A stretch of DNA of 33,395 nt from Hyphomicrobiales bacterium (lineage in GTDB: Bacteria; Pseudomonadota; Alphaproteobacteria; Rhizobiales; Hyphomicrobiaceae), in the NCBI GenBank assembly GCA_003963125.1, contig RXJK01000028.1:1-33395 (forward strand). Direction: 5' to 3'. This document shows, in pieces, positions 9,002 through 24,459 of this stretch; positions within the stretch are counted from its first letter, which is position 1, and each line of letters starts with the position of its first letter. Both the position numbers and the translations under genes were made by a program. The notes below the pieces were generated by a model, which was given only the letters and a program-made list of their open reading frames with translations, had not been told where the DNA came from and did not search any database.

Positions 9002-10027
9002 ATGAAGCTGTTCCCATTCGGCTGGGGCGCCAAACCGGCAAAGCCGCGCGGCGGCAGCGCCCGCAATCCGCGCACGCAGCCGCCCGCGCTCGGCAAGGCT
9101 CCGCCGTCCCTGTCCCAGCAACTGCAGCACGCGCAGGACGACTGGTCGCCCGGTCCGCCGCCGGGACGCTTCGGCGAGCCGATCCAGCCCGCGAGCTACG
9201 GCCAGTACGATCAATACGACCCGCCGGCGTTCGACGATTACAACCGCAACGGACACGCCCCGAGCGTGCAGGGCCACTATCAGCACCACGAGGAGCCGCA
9301 CGCCGGGCAGAACTGGCTGACGGCGGAGAACATCAAGAAAAGCTACGGCACGCGCCAGGTCGTGAAGGGCGTGAGCCTCGCCACCGGCCGCGGCGAAGCC
9401 GTGGGCCTGCTCGGCCCCAACGGCGCGGGCAAGACCACGACCTTCTACATGATCACCGGTCTCGTCGCCGCGGACTCCGGCAAGATCACGCTCGACGGCC
9501 GTGACGTCACCCGCCTCCCGATGTACCGCCGCGCCCGGCTCGGCATCGGTTACCTGCCGCAGGAAGCCTCGATCTTCCGCGGCCTCACGGTCGAGCAGAA
9601 CATCATGGCCGTGCTGGAACTGGTCGAGCCGAAAAAGAAGAAGCGGCGCGAGCAACTCGACAACCTGCTCGAGGAATTCAGCATCACCCGCCTTCGGAAG
9701 TCGCCGTCGCTGGCCCTGTCGGGCGGCGAGCGCCGCCGCTGCGAGATCGCCCGGGCGCTTGCCTCGCGTCCCTCGTTCATGCTGCTCGACGAGCCCTTCG
9801 CCGGTATCGACCCGCTCGCCGTGGGCGATATCCAGCAACTCGTCCGCCAGTTGACCGCCCGTGGCATCGGCGTCCTAATCACGGACCATAATGTCCGCGA
9901 GACCCTGAGCCTCGTCGATCGTGCCTACATTATTTACGACGGGCAGGTTTTGACACACGGTAACCCTCAGGAAATCATCAACAACGAGGATGTCCGGCGG
10001 GTCTACCTGGGGGACATGTTCGGTTAA
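9002..10027 (+). CDS. lptB: LPS export ABC transporter ATP-binding protein LptB, with about 100-aa N-terminal extension
   Basis: '[21 protein letters not shown]', '[21 protein letters not shown]', '[16 protein letters not shown]', '[14 protein letters not shown]', '[11 protein letters not shown]'. Confidence 0.93.
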
Positions 10028-10079
10028 TGCGGCGACCTTATACCTTGACCGTTGGACCAGTCCTGGTGACGATCTAGGC

Positions 10080-11642
10080 ATGGCGCTCATACCGAAACTT
10101 GAACTACGGCAAGGCCAGCAGCTGGTGATGACACCCCAGCTGCAGCAGGCCATCCGTTTGCTTCAGCTTTCGAACGTCGAACTGTGCTCCTTCGTCGAGG
10201 CCGAGCTCGAGCGTAACCCCTTGCTGGAGCGGGACGAAGCGTCTCCCGAACCGGCCGAGAGCGTCGAGCGCCGCGAGCGCGGAGAGCGCGAGGGCGACGA
10301 CGCCGACGGCGTCGACTGGGCGCTCGACCAGAAGCCGATCATGCTCAACGGCGAGGCCAAGGCCGACCGCATGGCCGCCGACAGGCCCGCGCAATCCGCC
10401 AATTCCGACACCGGCGCCCCGAGCAGCGCCGGCCCCGACCAGCCCGGCATCGACCTTGGCAACTGGAACTCGGTCCGCTCCGGCGGCGGCAGCTTCGACG
10501 CCGACGACAGCAGCATCGAGGACTATGTGGCCGCGGGCCTGTCGCTCGCCGACCACCTCACCGCGCAGCTCAACCTCGTCATCACCGATCCCATCGAGCG
10601 CATCATCGGCGCGCATCTGATCCACATGGTGGACGAGGCGGGCTACCTGCAGGGCGACCTCGGCGATCTCGCCCTGAAGCTCGGCGCACCCCTGTCGCGT
10701 ATCGAAGCCGTTCTCGGCGTGATGCAGACCTTCGATCCGCCCGGCGTCATGGCCCGCAATCTGGCCGAATGCCTGGCCCTGCAGCTCAAGGAGCAGAACC
10801 GCTACGATCCGCAGATCGCGCTCCTGCTCGAGAATCTCGAACTGCTCGGCAGCCACAACCTTGCGGCCCTGAAGCGCGCCGTCGGCGTCGATGGCCAGGA
10901 ACTCGCCGAGATGATCGCCGAGATCCGCACGCTCACCCCCAAGCCCGGCCTCAAGTTCGGCTCGGTGCAGATCCAGCCCGTGCTGCCCGACGTCATGGTC
11001 AAGCCCATGCGTGACGGCAGCTGGATGGTCGAGCTCAACAACGAGACGCTGCCGCGCGTCCTCGTCAGCCGCAGCTACTACGCCAACGTCTCGAAGACGG
11101 CCCGCTCCGAAAAGGATCGCGGCTACCTGCTCGAATGCCTGCAGAGTGCCAACTGGCTGGTGAAGAGCCTCGACCAGCGCGCCCGCACGATCCTCCGTGT
11201 CGCGGAAGAAATCGTCCGGCAGCAGGACGGCTTCCTGACCCACGGCATCGAGCACCTGAAGCCGCTCAACCTCAAGACGGTGGCCGACGCCATCTCGATG
11301 CATGAGTCGACCGTCAGCCGTGTCACCTCGAACAAGTACATGGCCACGCCGCGCGGCGTGTTCGAGCTCAAGTACTTCTTTACCTCCGCCATCGCTTCCG
11401 CTGACGGCTCCAGCGATGCGCATTCCTCTGAGGCTGTCCGCCATCGTATCAAGCAGCTGATCGACGCTGAGACGGCCGACACGGTTCTCTCCGACGACAA
11501 GATCGTGGAACTCCTCAAGCGCGACGGCATCGACATCGCCCGGCGTACGGTAGCGAAATACCGGGAGGCGTTGCGCATCCCCTCTTCTGTGCAGAGGCGG
11601 CGCGAAAAGCAGATGGCCGCACGCCTCGACTCAGTTGTCTAA
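10080..11642 (+). CDS. rpoN: RNA polymerase sigma-54 factor
   Basis: 'MALIPKLELRQGQQLVMTPQLQQAIRLLQLSNVEL', 'MHESTVSRVTSNKYMATPRGVFELKYFF', RpoN box 'IARRTVAKYREALRIPSSVQRRR'. Confidence 0.97.
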   Translation: MALIPKLELRQGQQLVMTPQLQQAIRLLQLSNVELCSFVEAELERNPLLERDEASPEPAESVERRERGEREGDDADGVDWALDQKPIMLNGEAKADRMAADRPAQSANSDTGAPSSAGPDQPGIDLGNWNSVRSGGGSFDADDSSIEDYVAAGLSLADHLTAQLNLVITDPIERIIGAHLIHMVDEAGYLQGDLGDLALKLGAPLSRIEAVLGVMQTFDPPGVMARNLAECLALQLKEQNRYDPQIALLLENLELLGSHNLAALKRAVGVDGQELAEMIAEIRTLTPKPGLKFGSVQIQPVLPDVMVKPMRDGSWMVELNNETLPRVLVSRSYYANVSKTARSEKDRGYLLECLQSANWLVKSLDQRARTILRVAEEIVRQQDGFLTHGIEHLKPLNLKTVADAISMHESTVSRVTSNKYMATPRGVFELKYFFTSAIASADGSSDAHSSEAVRHRIKQLIDAETADTVLSDDKIVELLKRDGIDIARRTVAKYREALRIPSSVQRRREKQMAARLDSVV

Positions 11643-12030: not shown

Positions 12031-12148
12031 TTGACCCATGGAACAGCGACTGTCGCAAAGTGGTGCTAGGACGGCGCCGAAGCTGGCCCGGAATTTCGCG
12101 GGCGAAGGATTGGCGAGGCCCGTCTGGTTTGAGAGTGAAGAGAGCTCG

Positions 12149-12613
12149 ATGGATCTTGGTGACCTGATAACTCCTGAGGCGGTCTTTGCTTCACTGCGCG
12201 CGCAGAGCAAGAAGCAGGCGCTGCAGGATCTTGCGGAGAAAGCCGCCAAGATCACCGGGATCAGCGCCCGGGAGATCCTGGAAACGCTGATGCAACGCGA
12301 GCGGCTGGGTTCGACGGGCGTCGGCCGCGGCATCGCCATCCCGCACGGCCGCGTACCCCAGTTGAACCGGATCGTGAGCGTGTTCGCCCGCCTCGCTGAA
12401 CCCATCGAGTTCGATGCGTTGGACGGCGAGCCTGTCGATCTCATCTTTCTTCTGCTGGCGCCCGAGCATGCCGGGGCCGATCACCTGAAGGCGCTGGCGC
12501 GCATTTCGCGTCTGCTGCGCAACCCCTCTTCCGCCGAGAAGCTGCGCGGCGCCCACGACCGCGCGGCCCTTTACGCCGTGCTGACGGAACCGGCCGCCTC
12601 GCACGCCGCCTGA
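12149..12613 (+). CDS. ptsN: PTS IIA-like nitrogen regulatory protein PtsN (EIIANtr)
   Basis: 'MDLGDLITPEAVFASLRAQSKKQALQDLAEKAA', 'RLGSTGVGRGIAIPHGRVPQLN' containing the His phosphorylation site; near rpoN. Confidence 0.95.
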   Translation: MDLGDLITPEAVFASLRAQSKKQALQDLAEKAAKITGISAREILETLMQRERLGSTGVGRGIAIPHGRVPQLNRIVSVFARLAEPIEFDALDGEPVDLIFLLLAPEHAGADHLKALARISRLLRNPSSAEKLRGAHDRAALYAVLTEPAASHAA

Positions 12614-18981: not shown

Positions 18982-20013
18982 CTAGCTCACGCGGCGCAAC
19001 CCCGGCGCGGCCGCCGGCGGTTGGGGCGTGTAGGTGCGCGTCGGCGCCGCGAACCCGCACGACGTTCCATCCACGACCTTGATCTCCTTCTCCCACGGCA
19101 GCACGTACTGGCCCTTCGCGAGATCGGTCATGTAGGTATAGGGGCAGTCTTGCGCGCCGCCCTTGACGGCGACGTAGCCGCGATGGCCGAACTGGTAGAT
19201 GTTGTTCTCGACGCCCCAGTGGATGCGGGCCTCGTCGCACAGCTTTGGGCGCACCTCCGCCGTGATGATCTCGTCGGGAATGCCGTTCCCCGTCACGATG
19301 GGCGTGCCGTCGTAGTTGACGATCATGCCCTCGCCCATGGAGTTGAACGAGCCGTCGGAACCCGCGAGGCACACGCTTGCCGTATACATGAGATTGCAGA
19401 AGGCGTTCGACTGGTTGGTGAAGTGCCAGGCCTGCCGGATCGGCGCCGTGTAGCCGGCCGTACGCAGCATGATGTTGGCGCCCTTGTAGGCGCACTCGCG
19501 CGCCATCTCCGGGAACATGCCGTCGTGGCAGATGATCAGCGCGATCTTGCTGCCGTTCGGGCCGTCGCAGACGGGAATGCCGATATCGCCCGGCTCCCAC
19601 GGCTCGACAGGCACCCAGGGATGCATCTTGCGGTAATAGAGCTTCAACTCGCCCTTGTTGTCGATGATGAGGCCGCTGTTGAAAGGATTGCCGTGCGGGT
19701 TGAACTCCATGATGGAGAAGCAGCCCCAGATGTTGTTGCGCACGCACGCCGCCTTGAACTTGGCGACCTCCGGCCCGTCGAGCGAGCACATGATCTCCGG
19801 GTTGATGTCCATTGACAGCCCGTGCAGGGCGTACTCGGGGAACACGACCAGATCCATGGTCGCGAGGTTGCGCCGGGCCTTGTCGACGAGCCCGCAAATG
19901 CGGTCGGTTTGCGCGGCGAGATCCGCTTTCGTCACCACCGACGGGTTCTGGATCTGCACGAGGCCGATGACGACGCCATCGGGCGATTTGTTCAAGCCGC
20001 CAAGTCCGCTCAT
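18982..20013 (-). CDS. amiF: Formamidase / aliphatic amidase (nitrilase superfamily, AmiF-like)
   Basis: 'DLVVFPEYALHGL' (Glu), 'YYRKMHPWVPVEPWEPGDIGIPV' (Lys), 'ALIICHDGMFPEMARECAYKGANIMLRTAGY' (Cys); close to AmiF: 'GEGMIVNYDGTPIV', 'WGVENNIYQFGHRGYVA'. Confidence 0.88.
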   Translation of the reverse strand: MSGLGGLNKSPDGVVIGLVQIQNPSVVTKADLAAQTDRICGLVDKARRNLATMDLVVFPEYALHGLSMDINPEIMCSLDGPEVAKFKAACVRNNIWGCFSIMEFNPHGNPFNSGLIIDNKGELKLYYRKMHPWVPVEPWEPGDIGIPVCDGPNGSKIALIICHDGMFPEMARECAYKGANIMLRTAGYTAPIRQAWHFTNQSNAFCNLMYTASVCLAGSDGSFNSMGEGMIVNYDGTPIVTGNGIPDEIITAEVRPKLCDEARIHWGVENNIYQFGHRGYVAVKGGAQDCPYTYMTDLAKGQYVLPWEKEIKVVDGTSCGFAAPTRTYTPQPPAAAPGLRRVS

Positions 20014-20204
20014 GTCGACGCTCCCGGTGCAAAGGATGTGGCAATCACGCGAGATGTGTCTGCAAGAGGCGTACCGGATCGCGAAGTTGAGCCCGGGCAT
20101 GGACTTGATGAAAGGCGCGCCGTATCCCGCCCAATCTGTGGGCGCATAGCGGCCAATCCGATTGTCATCGCAGCATTTCTCAACGGCAGTCAGGCGCTAT
20201 GGCG

Positions 20205-20223
20205 TGATCAGTTCCGCTGATCA
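20205..20223. promoter_or_regulatory. Inverted repeat TGATCAG-ttccg-CTGATCA, candidate upstream activator site
   Basis: 7-bp perfect arms; about 85-103 bp upstream of the TSS predicted from the sigma-54 element. Confidence 0.35.
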
Positions 20224-20281
20224 GAGTGAGAAGCGCTCGTGAAAACCGGCAGTTCAGCAGCTTTCGCTATTGCCCACCCAC

Positions 20282-20297
20282 TGGCATCGGCATTGCA
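20282..20297 (+). promoter_or_regulatory. Sigma-54 (-24/-12) promoter TGGCAT-N5-TTGCA
   Basis: TGGCATCGGCATTGCA; GG-N10-GC spacing exact; predicted TSS near 20308, SD-like CTGGGGAG next, ATG at 20328. Confidence 0.65.
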
Positions 20298-20327
20298 ACT
20301 CTCCTGCAAACCCTGGGGAGAACGGCA

Positions 20328-21692
20328 ATGGCTTTGGACGAGGAAGCGCCTGAGACCGTCTGCGGCTGCGGGTGTGGCGGCGACATGGCCCGGCACAAGG
20401 CGGAGATGTCCGAAGCCGGCGCCACGCCGGACTCCGAGGGCACCGAGGCCTACGTCGATCGCGCGGTCGACCACGCCATCCTGCAGGCCCTGTTCCCGCG
20501 CCCGCTGGCGCGCCGGGCACTGCTCAAAGCCGTCGGCGCATCGACTTTGCTCGCGGCGCTTGCCGACGCCTTCCCGCTAGCCGGCAGCCGCGCGCTGGCG
20601 CAGCAGGCGGGCGCGTTGGAAAAGACCAAGCTCAACGTCGGCTTCGTCCCCATCACCTGCACCGTGCCGATCCTCCTCGCGCAAGCCATGGGCGAGTACC
20701 AGAAGGAGGGGCTCGAGGTGAACCTCGCGCGCACGCCCGGCTGGGCCATCGTGCGCGACAAGCTCAACAGCGCCGAGTTCGACGCCTCGCACCTCGTGCT
20801 CGGCATGCCGCTCACCATGACGCTCGGCATCGGCTCGCAGCCCATCAGGACCATGGTCTCCACCGTCCAGAACGTGAACGGCAACGCCATCGTCCTGCAC
20901 GTGAAGCACAAGGACAAGCGCGACCCCAAGCAATGGAAAGGCTTCAAGCTCGGCATCCCGCATGAGCATTCCATGCACGCGATGCTGCTGCGCTACTACC
21001 TCGCCGAAGCGGGCCTCGATCCCGACAAGGACGTCGAGCTGCGCGTGTTCCCGCCGCCGGACTCGGTCGCCAACATGGCCGCGGGCAACCTCGACGGCAT
21101 GCTGTTCGCCGAACCCTGGGGCCAGCGCGCGGTGTTCGAGGGCATCGGCTTCATGCACATGCTCACCAAGGACATCTTCCCGAACCATCCCTGCTGCACG
21201 CTGTCTGTGACCGAGAAGTTCGTGAAGGAGAACCCGAACGCCTACGGCGCCATGTTCCGTGCCGTGGTGCGGGCGACGGAGTTCGCTGACAAGCAGGCGA
21301 ACCGCGCGCAGGTCGCCGATCTCCTCGCGCCCGCCAACTACCTGAACCAGCCCAAGACCGTGCTCGAGCAGGTTCTCCTCGGCCGCTTCGCAGATGGCCT
21401 CGGCGGCATCGTCACGGTCGAGGACCGCATCGGTTTCAAGGCGCTGCCTTACCAATCGACGGCGATCTGGCTGCTCACCCAGTTGCGCCGCTGGAACTTC
21501 ATCCCGACCGACCTCAACTATGCCGAGGTCGCCAAAACCGTGTTCCTGTCGTCGGAAGCCGAGAAGCGGATGAAGGACATGGGGCTCTCCCCGCCGGAGA
21601 CGACCATGCTGAAGCACGTGATCCTGGGCAAGGAGTTCGATCCGGCCCAGGCCGACACTTACCTCAAGAGCTTCGCGATCAAGCGGGCCTAG
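20328..21692 (+). CDS. NrtA/CmpA-like ABC transporter substrate-binding protein with Tat-type signal
   Basis: 'LARRALLKAVGASTLLAALADAFPLAGSRALAQ' twin-Arg leader; 'LNVGFVPITCTVPILLAQAMGEYQKEGLEVNL'; Cys-rich N-terminus 'VCGCGCGGD'. Confidence 0.85.
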   Translation: MALDEEAPETVCGCGCGGDMARHKAEMSEAGATPDSEGTEAYVDRAVDHAILQALFPRPLARRALLKAVGASTLLAALADAFPLAGSRALAQQAGALEKTKLNVGFVPITCTVPILLAQAMGEYQKEGLEVNLARTPGWAIVRDKLNSAEFDASHLVLGMPLTMTLGIGSQPIRTMVSTVQNVNGNAIVLHVKHKDKRDPKQWKGFKLGIPHEHSMHAMLLRYYLAEAGLDPDKDVELRVFPPPDSVANMAAGNLDGMLFAEPWGQRAVFEGIGFMHMLTKDIFPNHPCCTLSVTEKFVKENPNAYGAMFRAVVRATEFADKQANRAQVADLLAPANYLNQPKTVLEQVLLGRFADGLGGIVTVEDRIGFKALPYQSTAIWLLTQLRRWNFIPTDLNYAEVAKTVFLSSEAEKRMKDMGLSPPETTMLKHVILGKEFDPAQADTYLKSFAIKRA

Positions 21693-21707: not shown

Positions 21708-22022
21708 GTGACGCGCGGATACCACGACATCGGCGGCGAGGACTACGGCCCCATCCCCCAGGTCGAACTGCCCTGGCTGCATTGGGAGAAGCAAGTCGAA
21801 GCGGTGCGTAACCTGCTCGGCGACGGCACACGCCGCATCATCTCCCTCGACGAGATGCGCCGCGGCTTCGAGTCTTTCGGTGCGGACAAGTACAAGATGT
21901 ACTCGTTCTATCGGCGCCGCCTCGAATCCATGATCGACGTGCTGATCGAGAAGGGCGTCATCACCCGCGAGGAACTCGACGCCGAGATCGCCGAAGTCCG
22001 TTCGCGCTGGTGCCCTCCCTGA
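21708..22022 (+). CDS. Thiocyanate hydrolase/nitrile hydratase family: N-terminal half of beta (ScnB-like)
   Basis: GTG start; 'HDIGGEDYGPIPQVELPWLHWEKQVEAVRNLL' ... 'FYRRRLESMIDVLIEKGVITREEL' as in NHase beta N-domain. Confidence 0.82.
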   Translation: MTRGYHDIGGEDYGPIPQVELPWLHWEKQVEAVRNLLGDGTRRIISLDEMRRGFESFGADKYKMYSFYRRRLESMIDVLIEKGVITREELDAEIAEVRSRWCPP

Positions 22023-22411
22023 TCGCGGAGCGTCCCATGCGTGGCAGGTTCAAGGTCGGCGATCGCGTGACCGTGCTCGAGCTGAACAAAGCCGGCCACA
22101 TCCGTACGCCGTTCTACGTGCGCCACAAGACGGGCGTCGTGGTGCAGGATTGCGGCCTGTTCCTCAACCCCGAGGATCTCGCTGTCGGCATCACGAGCGG
22201 GCCGGTGGTTAAGCTCTACCGCGTGCAGTTCCAGCAACGCGATCTCTGGCCCGACTACAAGGGCGCCCCGCAGGACACGCTCTGCATCGAGATCTACGAC
22301 CATTGGCTCGAAGCCGCCCGCACCACCGCTCGAAAGTCCGCGCCCAAACCTGCTTCCAAGAAGAAGCCCGCCACGAGGAAGAAGAATGAGCCACGAAGCG
22401 CACGAGCATGA
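22010..22411 (+). CDS. Thiocyanate hydrolase/nitrile hydratase family: C-terminal half of beta (ScnA-like)
   Basis: 'FKVGDRVTVLELNKAGHIRTPFYVRHKTGVVV' ... 'VKLYRVQFQQRDLWPDYKGAPQDTLCIEIYDHWLE', the NHase beta SH3-like domain; alternative start ATG 22037. Confidence 0.85.
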   Translation: MPSLIAERPMRGRFKVGDRVTVLELNKAGHIRTPFYVRHKTGVVVQDCGLFLNPEDLAVGITSGPVVKLYRVQFQQRDLWPDYKGAPQDTLCIEIYDHWLEAARTTARKSAPKPASKKKPATRKKNEPRSARA

Positions 22412-23078
22412 CGACCATGATCACGGCGACCACGACCACGACCACGCTCATGATCACGGCGGCAAGCATTCGCACCCGAGCTTGGTGATCGAGGACGAGG
22501 CCGGCAACATCGAGGGCCAGATCATGATCGATGCCCTGCAGAACCTGCTCGTTGCCCGCAACCTGCTCGCGCATCAGGAGGTGACGCAGGAAATCGAGAA
22601 ACTGGAATCACCGGGCGTGCATCAGGGCGCCAAGATCGTCGCGCGCGCCTGGACCGACCCGGCCTTCAAACAGCGGCTGCTGGCGAACGGCAAGTCCGCT
22701 GCCGCCGAACTCGACATCAAGGTCGGCGAGGCGCAGCTCGTCGTGGTCGAGAACACGCCCGACACCCACAACCTCATCACCTGCACGCTGTGTTCGTGCT
22801 ACCCGCGCTCGATCCTCGGCCAGCCGCCGTCCTGGTACATCTCCAAGGCCTACCGCGCTCGCGCCGTCCGCGAGCCGCGCGCCGTGCTGGCGGAATTCGG
22901 CATGTCGCTGCCCGACGATGTCGAACTCGTCGTCCACGACAGCAACGCGGACATGCGCTACCTCGTCCTGCCGGAGCGCCCCGAGGGTGCCGAAACCTGG
23001 AGCGAGGACAAGCTTGCCGAACTCGTCACGCGCGATTGCATGATCGGCGTGTCGAAAGCACTTCCCGCGCAGTCATAG
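22386..23078 (+). CDS. Thiocyanate hydrolase/nitrile hydratase family: catalytic alpha (ScnC-like) subunit
   Basis: Co-type metal motif CTLCSC (Cys133/136/138; nt 22782-22799) followed by 'YPRSILGQPPSWY', 'EPRAVLAEFG'; 12 His in the first 30 residues. Confidence 0.9.
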   Translation: MSHEAHEHDDHDHGDHDHDHAHDHGGKHSHPSLVIEDEAGNIEGQIMIDALQNLLVARNLLAHQEVTQEIEKLESPGVHQGAKIVARAWTDPAFKQRLLANGKSAAAELDIKVGEAQLVVVENTPDTHNLITCTLCSCYPRSILGQPPSWYISKAYRARAVREPRAVLAEFGMSLPDDVELVVHDSNADMRYLVLPERPEGAETWSEDKLAELVTRDCMIGVSKALPAQS

Positions 23079-23268: not shown

Positions 23269-23439
23269 ATGAAGTCCCTTCTTTCCCGGTTTGTCAAAGA
23301 CGAGTCCGGCGCGACCGCCATCGAGTATGGCCTCATCGCCGCTCTCATCGCCGTCGGCATCATTGGCGCTGCCAAGAGCCTCGGCAACCAGGTCAGCGGC
23401 ACGTTCAACAACGTCGCCACCGCCATGAAGAACGCCTGA
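23269..23439 (+). CDS. Flp family type IVb pilin (56 aa; not in the ORF track)
   Basis: MKSLLSRFVKDESGATAIEYGLIAALIAVGIIGAAKSLGNQVSGTFNNVATAMKNA; canonical 'DESGATAIEYGLIAALIAV'. Confidence 0.95.
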   Translation: MKSLLSRFVKDESGATAIEYGLIAALIAVGIIGAAKSLGNQVSGTFNNVATAMKNA

Positions 23440-23478
23440 TCTCAGGCGTTCGCGTGGTGTGATCTGTTCGGCAGTGAT

Positions 23479-23541: not shown

Positions 23542-24459
23542 CTACGGCACGTACTTCTTCAGCTCGCCCGCGATATCGACGGCCTGCACGACCTCGGTCA
23601 GCGCGCCGACGAGCGGCGGCAGCGGATGCCGCTCGGCAATCAGAAGCCCCATCGTGTTGCTCGCGAGCGGCTCCACGAGCGGGATGGCCTTCGTGCCCTG
23701 CCAGCCGCTGATCAGGAAGAAGAACGAGTGCGGCACGATCGTGAACCACGCGCCCGAGCGCACGTGCGAGCACAACACGACGGCGCAATCGGTATCGATC
23801 ACCGTCTTCGGTGACACGCCCGCGCTCTGGAAGATGCTGTCCAGCAGCAGCCGGTTCAGCATTTCCGGCGAGAGCAGGCACAGCGGCAGATCGGCGGCCT
23901 CGCGCCAGCTCACCTGCGCCTGCGTGGCGATGGCATGCCCCTCGGGCGCCAGCAGGTAATAGCTCTCCTCGTAGAGATCGTAGGGCCGCAGCCCCGCGTG
24001 CGTTGCGTGGTCGAGGTAGGTGATGCCGACCTCGAGATCGAAGCGTTCGAGCCCGCGCACGATTTGCGCGCTCGTCTGCGACTGGAGCGACACCGTCACG
24101 CCCGGAAACTGCTTCTGGAACGGCGTGGTGATCAGCGACACCATGGGCGTCGCCATCGGGATCACCCCGATCCGAAGATGGCCCGACAACTTTTCCGGGT
24201 CGGAGCCTGCGATCTGCTGCAGCAGGGTCTTGCGGTCCGCCAGCAGCCCCCGCGCCCACTCCAGGATGCGCGTGCCCTCGGGCGTGAAGCCGCGAAAACC
24301 CTGGTTGCGGCGGTCCACGATCGGGACGCCAAACTCCTGCTCGATGTTGCGGAGCGCCTGGGACAGGGCCGACTGGCTGATCTCGCACGCCTGCGCAGCA
24401 CGCCCGAAATGCCGTTCGCGGGCCAGGATGACGAGATACTCCAGTTGTCGCAGCTGCAT
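23542..24459 (-). CDS. LysR family transcriptional regulator
   Basis: 'MQLRQLEYLVILARERHFGRAAQACEISQSALSQALRNIEQEFGVPIVDR' HTH plus LysR effector domain. Confidence 0.95.
   Translation of the reverse strand: MQLRQLEYLVILARERHFGRAAQACEISQSALSQALRNIEQEFGVPIVDRRNQGFRGFTPEGTRILEWARGLLADRKTLLQQIAGSDPEKLSGHLRIGVIPMATPMVSLITTPFQKQFPGVTVSLQSQTSAQIVRGLERFDLEVGITYLDHATHAGLRPYDLYEESYYLLAPEGHAIATQAQVSWREAADLPLCLLSPEMLNRLLLDSIFQSAGVSPKTVIDTDCAVVLCSHVRSGAWFTIVPHSFFFLISGWQGTKAIPLVEPLASNTMGLLIAERHPLPPLVGALTEVVQAVDIAGELKKYVP

Follow-up and report, generated by a model that had tools for sequence, protein, structure and literature searches.

We suggest, with high confidence, that the sequence TGGCAT-CGGCA-TTGCA at 20282-20297 acts as a functional sigma-54 (RpoN) promoter of an operon encoding a NrtA/CmpA-like substrate-binding protein (SBP) and an enzyme of the nitrile hydratase/thiocyanate hydrolase (NHase/SCNase) family in a Hyphomicrobiales bacterium. 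The promoter is very probably real; as a switch it would be of a familiar type, used in an unremarkable way. Conservation of the promoter, conservation of a neighbouring LysR-type dyad and the gene content of the region were all computed directly. Coordinates (Table 1) refer to the whole stretch of DNA analysed, 33,395 nucleotides in length, which we term the window.

Table 1. Features of the window around the SBP and NHase/SCNase-family operon.
Feature	Position	Strand	Basis or remark
Predicted sigma-54 -24/-12 promoter, TGGCAT-CGGCA-TTGCA (TGGCATCGGCATTGCA)	20282-20297	+	Pattern, matrix, genome count, conservation
Shine-Dalgarno-like GGGGAG	20315-20320	+	7 nt before ATG 20328, by sequence
Dyad TGATCAG-N5-CTGATCA (LysR T-N11-A type, ATNAG-N5-CTNAT)	20205-20223	.	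Centre about -94
NtrC-type palindrome CGCCCA-N5-TGGGCG	20128-20144	.	154 bp upstream of the -24 T, centre about -172
NrtA/CmpA-like SBP, NMT1_2 family	20328-21692	+	PF13379, 260 bits
NHase beta N-terminal half, separate subunit	21708-22022	+	PF21006
NHase beta C-terminal half, separate subunit	22010-22411	+	PF02211
NHase alpha / SCNase gamma-type subunit, Co-type CTLCSCY, His-rich N-terminus	22386-23078	+	PF02979, 258 bits
Formamidase (AmiF type), divergent	18982-20013	-	NF009803, 571 bits, above the equivalog cut-off of 406; PDB formamidases
LysR-type regulator, CynR-like at best, downstream of the operon	23542-24459	-	PF00126/PF03466
rpoN	9990-11642		TIGR02395, 435 bits, cut-off 277
ptsN	12038-12613

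On inspection of the sequence, TGGCAT (20282-20287) and TTGCA (20293-20297) set the GG at 20283-20284 and the GC at 20295-20296 in GG-N10-GC spacing, and the -24/-12 match claimed in the preliminary description proved exact in both sequence and coordinates. The -24/-12 convention places the predicted transcription start site (TSS) at 20308, and the Shine-Dalgarno-like sequence said to precede ATG 20328 is present as GGGGAG. Since alignments of SBP orthologues begin at about residue 3-12, the protein likely starts at this ATG and not at an in-frame GTG codon upstream, which would leave the -24/-12 site intergenic. No sigma-70 promoter-like site was found in 20000-20340.

Across the whole window, TGGCAY-N5-TTGCW has one exact match, TGGCATCGGCATTGCA; with one mismatch allowed there are 3 matches versus 1.24 +/- 1.14 in shuffles, so that the window scan taken alone is weak evidence for the site. 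In the 150 nt 5' of the SBP gene, TGGCAY-N5-TTGC arose in 16 of 20,000 dinucleotide shuffles. A -24/-12 matrix built independently, from 43 other sites, scores 20282-20297 at 17.1 bits, 4.5 bits above the runner-up in the window (12.6 bits) and within the range of about 14-22 bits spanned by its training set; the site is nevertheless weaker than most of its class, with T for C at position 6 and C for G/A at position 7. Pattern searches of the 6.2-Mb genome returned 17 exact TGGCAY-N5-TTGCW matches and 6 matches to the reversed pattern used as a control. Several of the patterns used in this analysis were picked after the sequences had been viewed. Among the genes lying 3' of the exact matches we recognise, from their sequences, nifB, urtA, nrtA, a nifU/iscA-like pair and further ABC binding proteins, which shows that the pattern picks out nitrogen genes in this genome.

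That a sigma-54 promoter drives the operon, as the preliminary description had proposed, is strongly supported by retention of the site in six other genomes whose flanking sequences cannot be aligned. Searching genomes with the alpha-like subunit as query recovered orthologous clusters with a NrtA-like SBP in Hansschlegelia zhihuaiae (L010), Xanthobacter tagetidis (L011), Methylopila turkensis (L012), Chelatococcus reniformis (L013), a Xanthobacteraceae MAG (L019) and H. beijingensis (L021), all with the NrtA-like binding protein, split NHase beta and NHase alpha arrangement; a class-wide search of 386 genomes gave no further orthologues at E<=1e-175. A site with 0-1 mismatches to TGGCACGN4TTGCW stands before the SBP gene in 6/6 of these relatives, as does TGGCA[CT]-N5-TTGC. 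In Beijerinckia (L032) the SBP is located behind an ABC transporter, and no such site was found ahead of it. The strict pattern occurs 14 times in 719 kb of fetched related loci, six of them at exactly this position, and when each 150-nt region is dinucleotide-shuffled 20,000 times, a site of this kind arises 2 to 20 times (1e-4 to 1e-3). Column identity across the operons is 95% in the core, 38% in the spacer and 29% in the flanks, the last being near random. Taken with the shuffle rarity, these values indicate that the -24/-12 core is an island of selection rather than shared background.

The closest solved relatives of the SBP are nitrate/bicarbonate transport proteins, by comparison with the PDB, and the protein carries a long N-terminal region with a Cys motif followed by a Tat-like signal. 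In the window (20328-20530) and in orthologues, about 60 residues with the conserved motif CGCGCG or CACGCG precede that signal, and the genome's own nrtA has a Cys motif of similar kind (CSCG). The enzyme is best labelled by family, because its alpha-like subunit falls under both curated cut-offs: it scores 237.5 against 249.85 for nitrile hydratase (TIGR01323), with beta split over two genes, and 197.2 against 291.45 for the thiocyanate hydrolase gamma subunit (TIGR03887). The earlier name NHase thus holds as a family-level name; in its division into three subunits the enzyme follows thiocyanate hydrolase. The alpha-like subunit also has a His-rich N-terminus (window 22386-22480, HEHDDHDHGDHDHDHAHDHGGKHSH) that may serve cobalt loading. 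Downstream, the LysR-type protein scores 127.7 bits against NF008416, under the cut-off of 277; its gene, the start of which was set by where alignments begin, is kept downstream of the operon in six relatives, whose proteins are 51-53% identical to it. Between the operon and this gene (23269-23440) lies a small open reading frame for a Flp/Fap-type pilin (MKSLLSRFVKDESGATAIEYGLIAALIAVG...), named by eye. The preliminary description correctly located rpoN and ptsN in the same window, but their proximity carries no weight as evidence and is incidental: they act in trans, and neither occurs near the operon in the loci of any relative.

Paralogues of the SBP at 46-53% identity are nrtA-type genes found across the order, with a nitrate ABC permease 3' in the loci whose neighbours were checked, and 23 of 27 have a sigma-54-like site no more than 160 nt upstream, versus 1.9% of random stretches. 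The simplest history, we infer, is that the NHase-type operon inherited its promoter together with a nrtA-like gene. In Bradyrhizobium sp. DOA9, rpoN mutants no longer express nrtA and urtA, and the sites listed for that strain include TGGCATGCTCCTTGC, 36 nt ahead of a gene for a nitrate-type binding protein (PMC13207237). Tandem ACGA-N4-TCGT dyads, often in about three copies, lie 5' of the nrtA sigma-54-like site in many members of the order (L093-L119), the exact form occurring in 16 of 24 nrtA upstream regions; no enrichment of such arrays was found in the set of NHase-operon promoters. We also note a PAS-domain sigma-54 activator encoded divergently from the nrtA operon in one locus (L095, 6-1223, minus strand); PAS-type activators occur in genomes G306, G307 and G308 as well, and none was seen in this genome (G000).

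The dyad at 20205-20223, absent from the preliminary description, is flanked by the putative enhancer on one side and the sigma-54 promoter on the other. Its ATNAG-N5-CTNAT form is found in 7/7 operons, the C. reniformis copy with one mismatch. In the six relatives, an AT-rich element towards formamidase keeps a constant spacing of about 57 bp from the dyad, and the sigma-54 site lies anywhere between 49 and 100 bp from it; the constant spacing points to the divergent promoter, and we therefore read the dyad as probably the LysR site of the formamidase gene, with the LysR protein encoded downstream as its putative binder. A minus-strand sequence, TGCCACATCCTTTGCA (20043-20028), was rejected as a sigma-54 promoter for formamidase, its invariant GG being broken and its TSS falling after the ribosome-binding site. 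In C. reniformis, an ABC transporter SBP and permease (L013, 1244-2700) occupy the divergent formamidase position, and a second LysR-type dyad (2408) lies near the start of these replacing genes.

No linked activator gene was found among the window genes examined. This genome encodes five proteins with a strong Sigma54_activat match: by model, L131 is NifA, L132 is NtrC (TIGR01818, 711.7 bits, cut-off 558.6) with an intact GHEKGAFTGA loop, and L133 and L134 are two other response-regulator types, while L135 was taken as a putative NtrX from its sequence and a weaker match, no GAFTGA loop being seen in L135 or in the NtrX-type neighbours of NtrC. In a comparison whose sequence filter missed some activators and which leaves the exclusivity of NtrC unproven, NtrC was clearly matched in 4/4 other genomes (71-74% identical), with GAFTGA or GSFTGA kept in the NtrC of 5/5 genomes examined.

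Upstream of the promoter lies the NtrC-type palindrome of Table 1. Its general form YGCCYA-N5-TRGGCR, settled on once the window palindrome was known, has 17 occurrences in the genome against 5 for the control; two of these lie at urtA and a third at the beginning of dusB/nifR3, a gene located 5' of the NtrC gene and on one contig with it. An NtrC-type box stands 100-155 bp upstream of three among the 17 sigma-54 pattern sites, namely those of urtA, the window operon and a branched-chain amino-acid-type SBP (C258), the C258 palindrome standing at the same 154 bp as the one in the window. Against a matrix for the motif TGCYTA-N5-TARGCA, built from the sigma-54-linked glnK and urtA upstream regions, the window box scores weakly (p=0.27). 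The upstream regions of the relatives' operons yielded no clear NtrC box, and the canonical enteric site TGCAC-N7-GTGCA had no convincing match in either promoter set. The conserved AGTCYAAAWTYT element of the relatives was rejected as an NtrC box, since it scores some 4-12 bits and in no single case reaches a shuffle p under 0.03; a divergent sigma-70 -10 region would better explain why it always lies about 57 bp from the LysR-type dyad. We consider NtrC the likely activator, at somewhat better than even confidence, because there is no linked activator, NtrC has an intact loop and a palindrome lies upstream. The earlier proposal of nitrogen limitation acting through NtrC is hence supported in this genome, where urtA, nif and nrtA share the promoter class, but it is not proven, the box not being clearly conserved in relatives.

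Other interpretations differ in how much of this scheme they would retain. That the -24/-12 match is a chance sequence is very improbable: about one site is expected per window when a mismatch is allowed, but 7/7 operons hold the site at the same place between flanks that cannot be aligned. It is also improbable, if slightly less so, that the operon is driven by a LysR-dependent sigma-70 promoter at the dyad, with the -24/-12 match secondary or unused. The dyad is conserved as well as the sigma-54 site, and the LysR gene accompanies the operon in six relatives, both of which count in favour of this reading; the dyad nonetheless keeps its spacing to the formamidase side and not to the sigma-54 site, no sigma-70-like site was found in 20000-20340, and selection has preserved the -24/-12 core.

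A more serious contender accepts the sigma-54 promoter and assigns its activation to NifA or to one of the two other response regulators in place of NtrC. We regard this as possible though rather unlikely. The relatives without a clear NtrC box are consistent with it, as is the presence of three such alternative activators in the genome, and the ACGA-N4-TCGT arrays carried by most nrtA paralogues make activator swapping plausible in this gene family. Set against this are the NtrC-type palindrome in the window, the lack of an activator gene linked to the operon there, and the distribution of the candidates: of the four other genomes compared, G305 alone gave a close NifA match (61%), and L133 and L134 had no consistent match, under a filter that missed some proteins. 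Activation of the sigma-54 promoter by NtrC is accordingly the interpretation that we develop below.

No paper describing a sigma-54-controlled NHase operon of this kind was found in the open-access literature searched, and the closest known systems each share part of its design. The nrtA/nasF and urtA uptake operons, under NtrC and sigma-54, likewise place a -24/-12 site some 50-140 nt ahead of a gene for a periplasmic binding protein; a homologous SBP is a further shared feature, and this genome uses the promoter class at nrtA and urtA as well. They differ in encoding a permease, ATPase or nitrate reductase where an NHase/SCNase-family enzyme is found here, and the nrtA paralogues in mostly having ACGA-N4-TCGT arrays upstream. 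Thiocyanate hydrolase, with its ScnBAC gene order, likewise consists of three subunits, two of them corresponding to the halves of an NHase beta encoded by separate genes and the third being a Co-type CTLCSCY alpha/gamma subunit, yet the present protein is closer to the NHase alpha model (237 vs 250) than to the gamma model (197 vs 291), reaching neither. The mechanism of repression by a LysR protein at the Klebsiella nac promoter offers a parallel for the control region: in both cases a LysR-type site lies between an enhancer, putative in the window, and a sigma-54 promoter, although the putative LysR here is CynR-like and probably serves the divergent gene. LysR repression of the nac promoter is cited in PMC4740811. 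Pseudomonas pseudoalcaligenes CECT5344 assimilates cyanide through its nit1C cluster, for which NitA serves as a sigma-54-dependent regulator (PMC8567248). Sigma-54-linked nitrile or cyanide nitrogen assimilation, which is predicted from the genes in our case, would be common to both systems, but nit1C relies on a nitrilase (NitC) and its own activator, and the window operon on an NHase-type enzyme and a formamidase, with no linked activator.

We envisage that, under nitrogen limitation, NtrC-P would bind upstream of the promoter, here most likely at the palindrome, and that the DNA would loop, allowing NtrC to open the sigma-54 holoenzyme complex and transcription to proceed from near 20308. 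The substrate and physiology of the operon we infer as follows: the three-subunit Co-type enzyme would hydrate a small nitrile to its amide, HCN or another short nitrile being our guess, and the divergent formamidase would release ammonia from the amide. Bound at the dyad, the CynR-like LysR would make expression depend on substrate as well, mainly at the divergent formamidase promoter; it may act on the sigma-54 promoter too, since the dyad lies between putative enhancer and promoter. A bolder version, which we hold to be doubtful, is that this LysR gates NtrC by a nitrile or cyanide signal, creating a two-input switch that also turns on the formamidase, for HCN assimilation via formamide.

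With this promoter, an uncharacterised three-subunit NHase/SCNase-type enzyme would join the nitrogen-starvation regulon, together with a formamidase and a binding protein of NrtA-like type. This placement predicts both a role for these genes, the scavenging of nitrogen from nitriles or cyanide, and the growth condition under which they would be expressed, and the region as a whole provides a concrete case in which one divergent control region may be shared between a sigma-54 promoter and a conserved LysR site.
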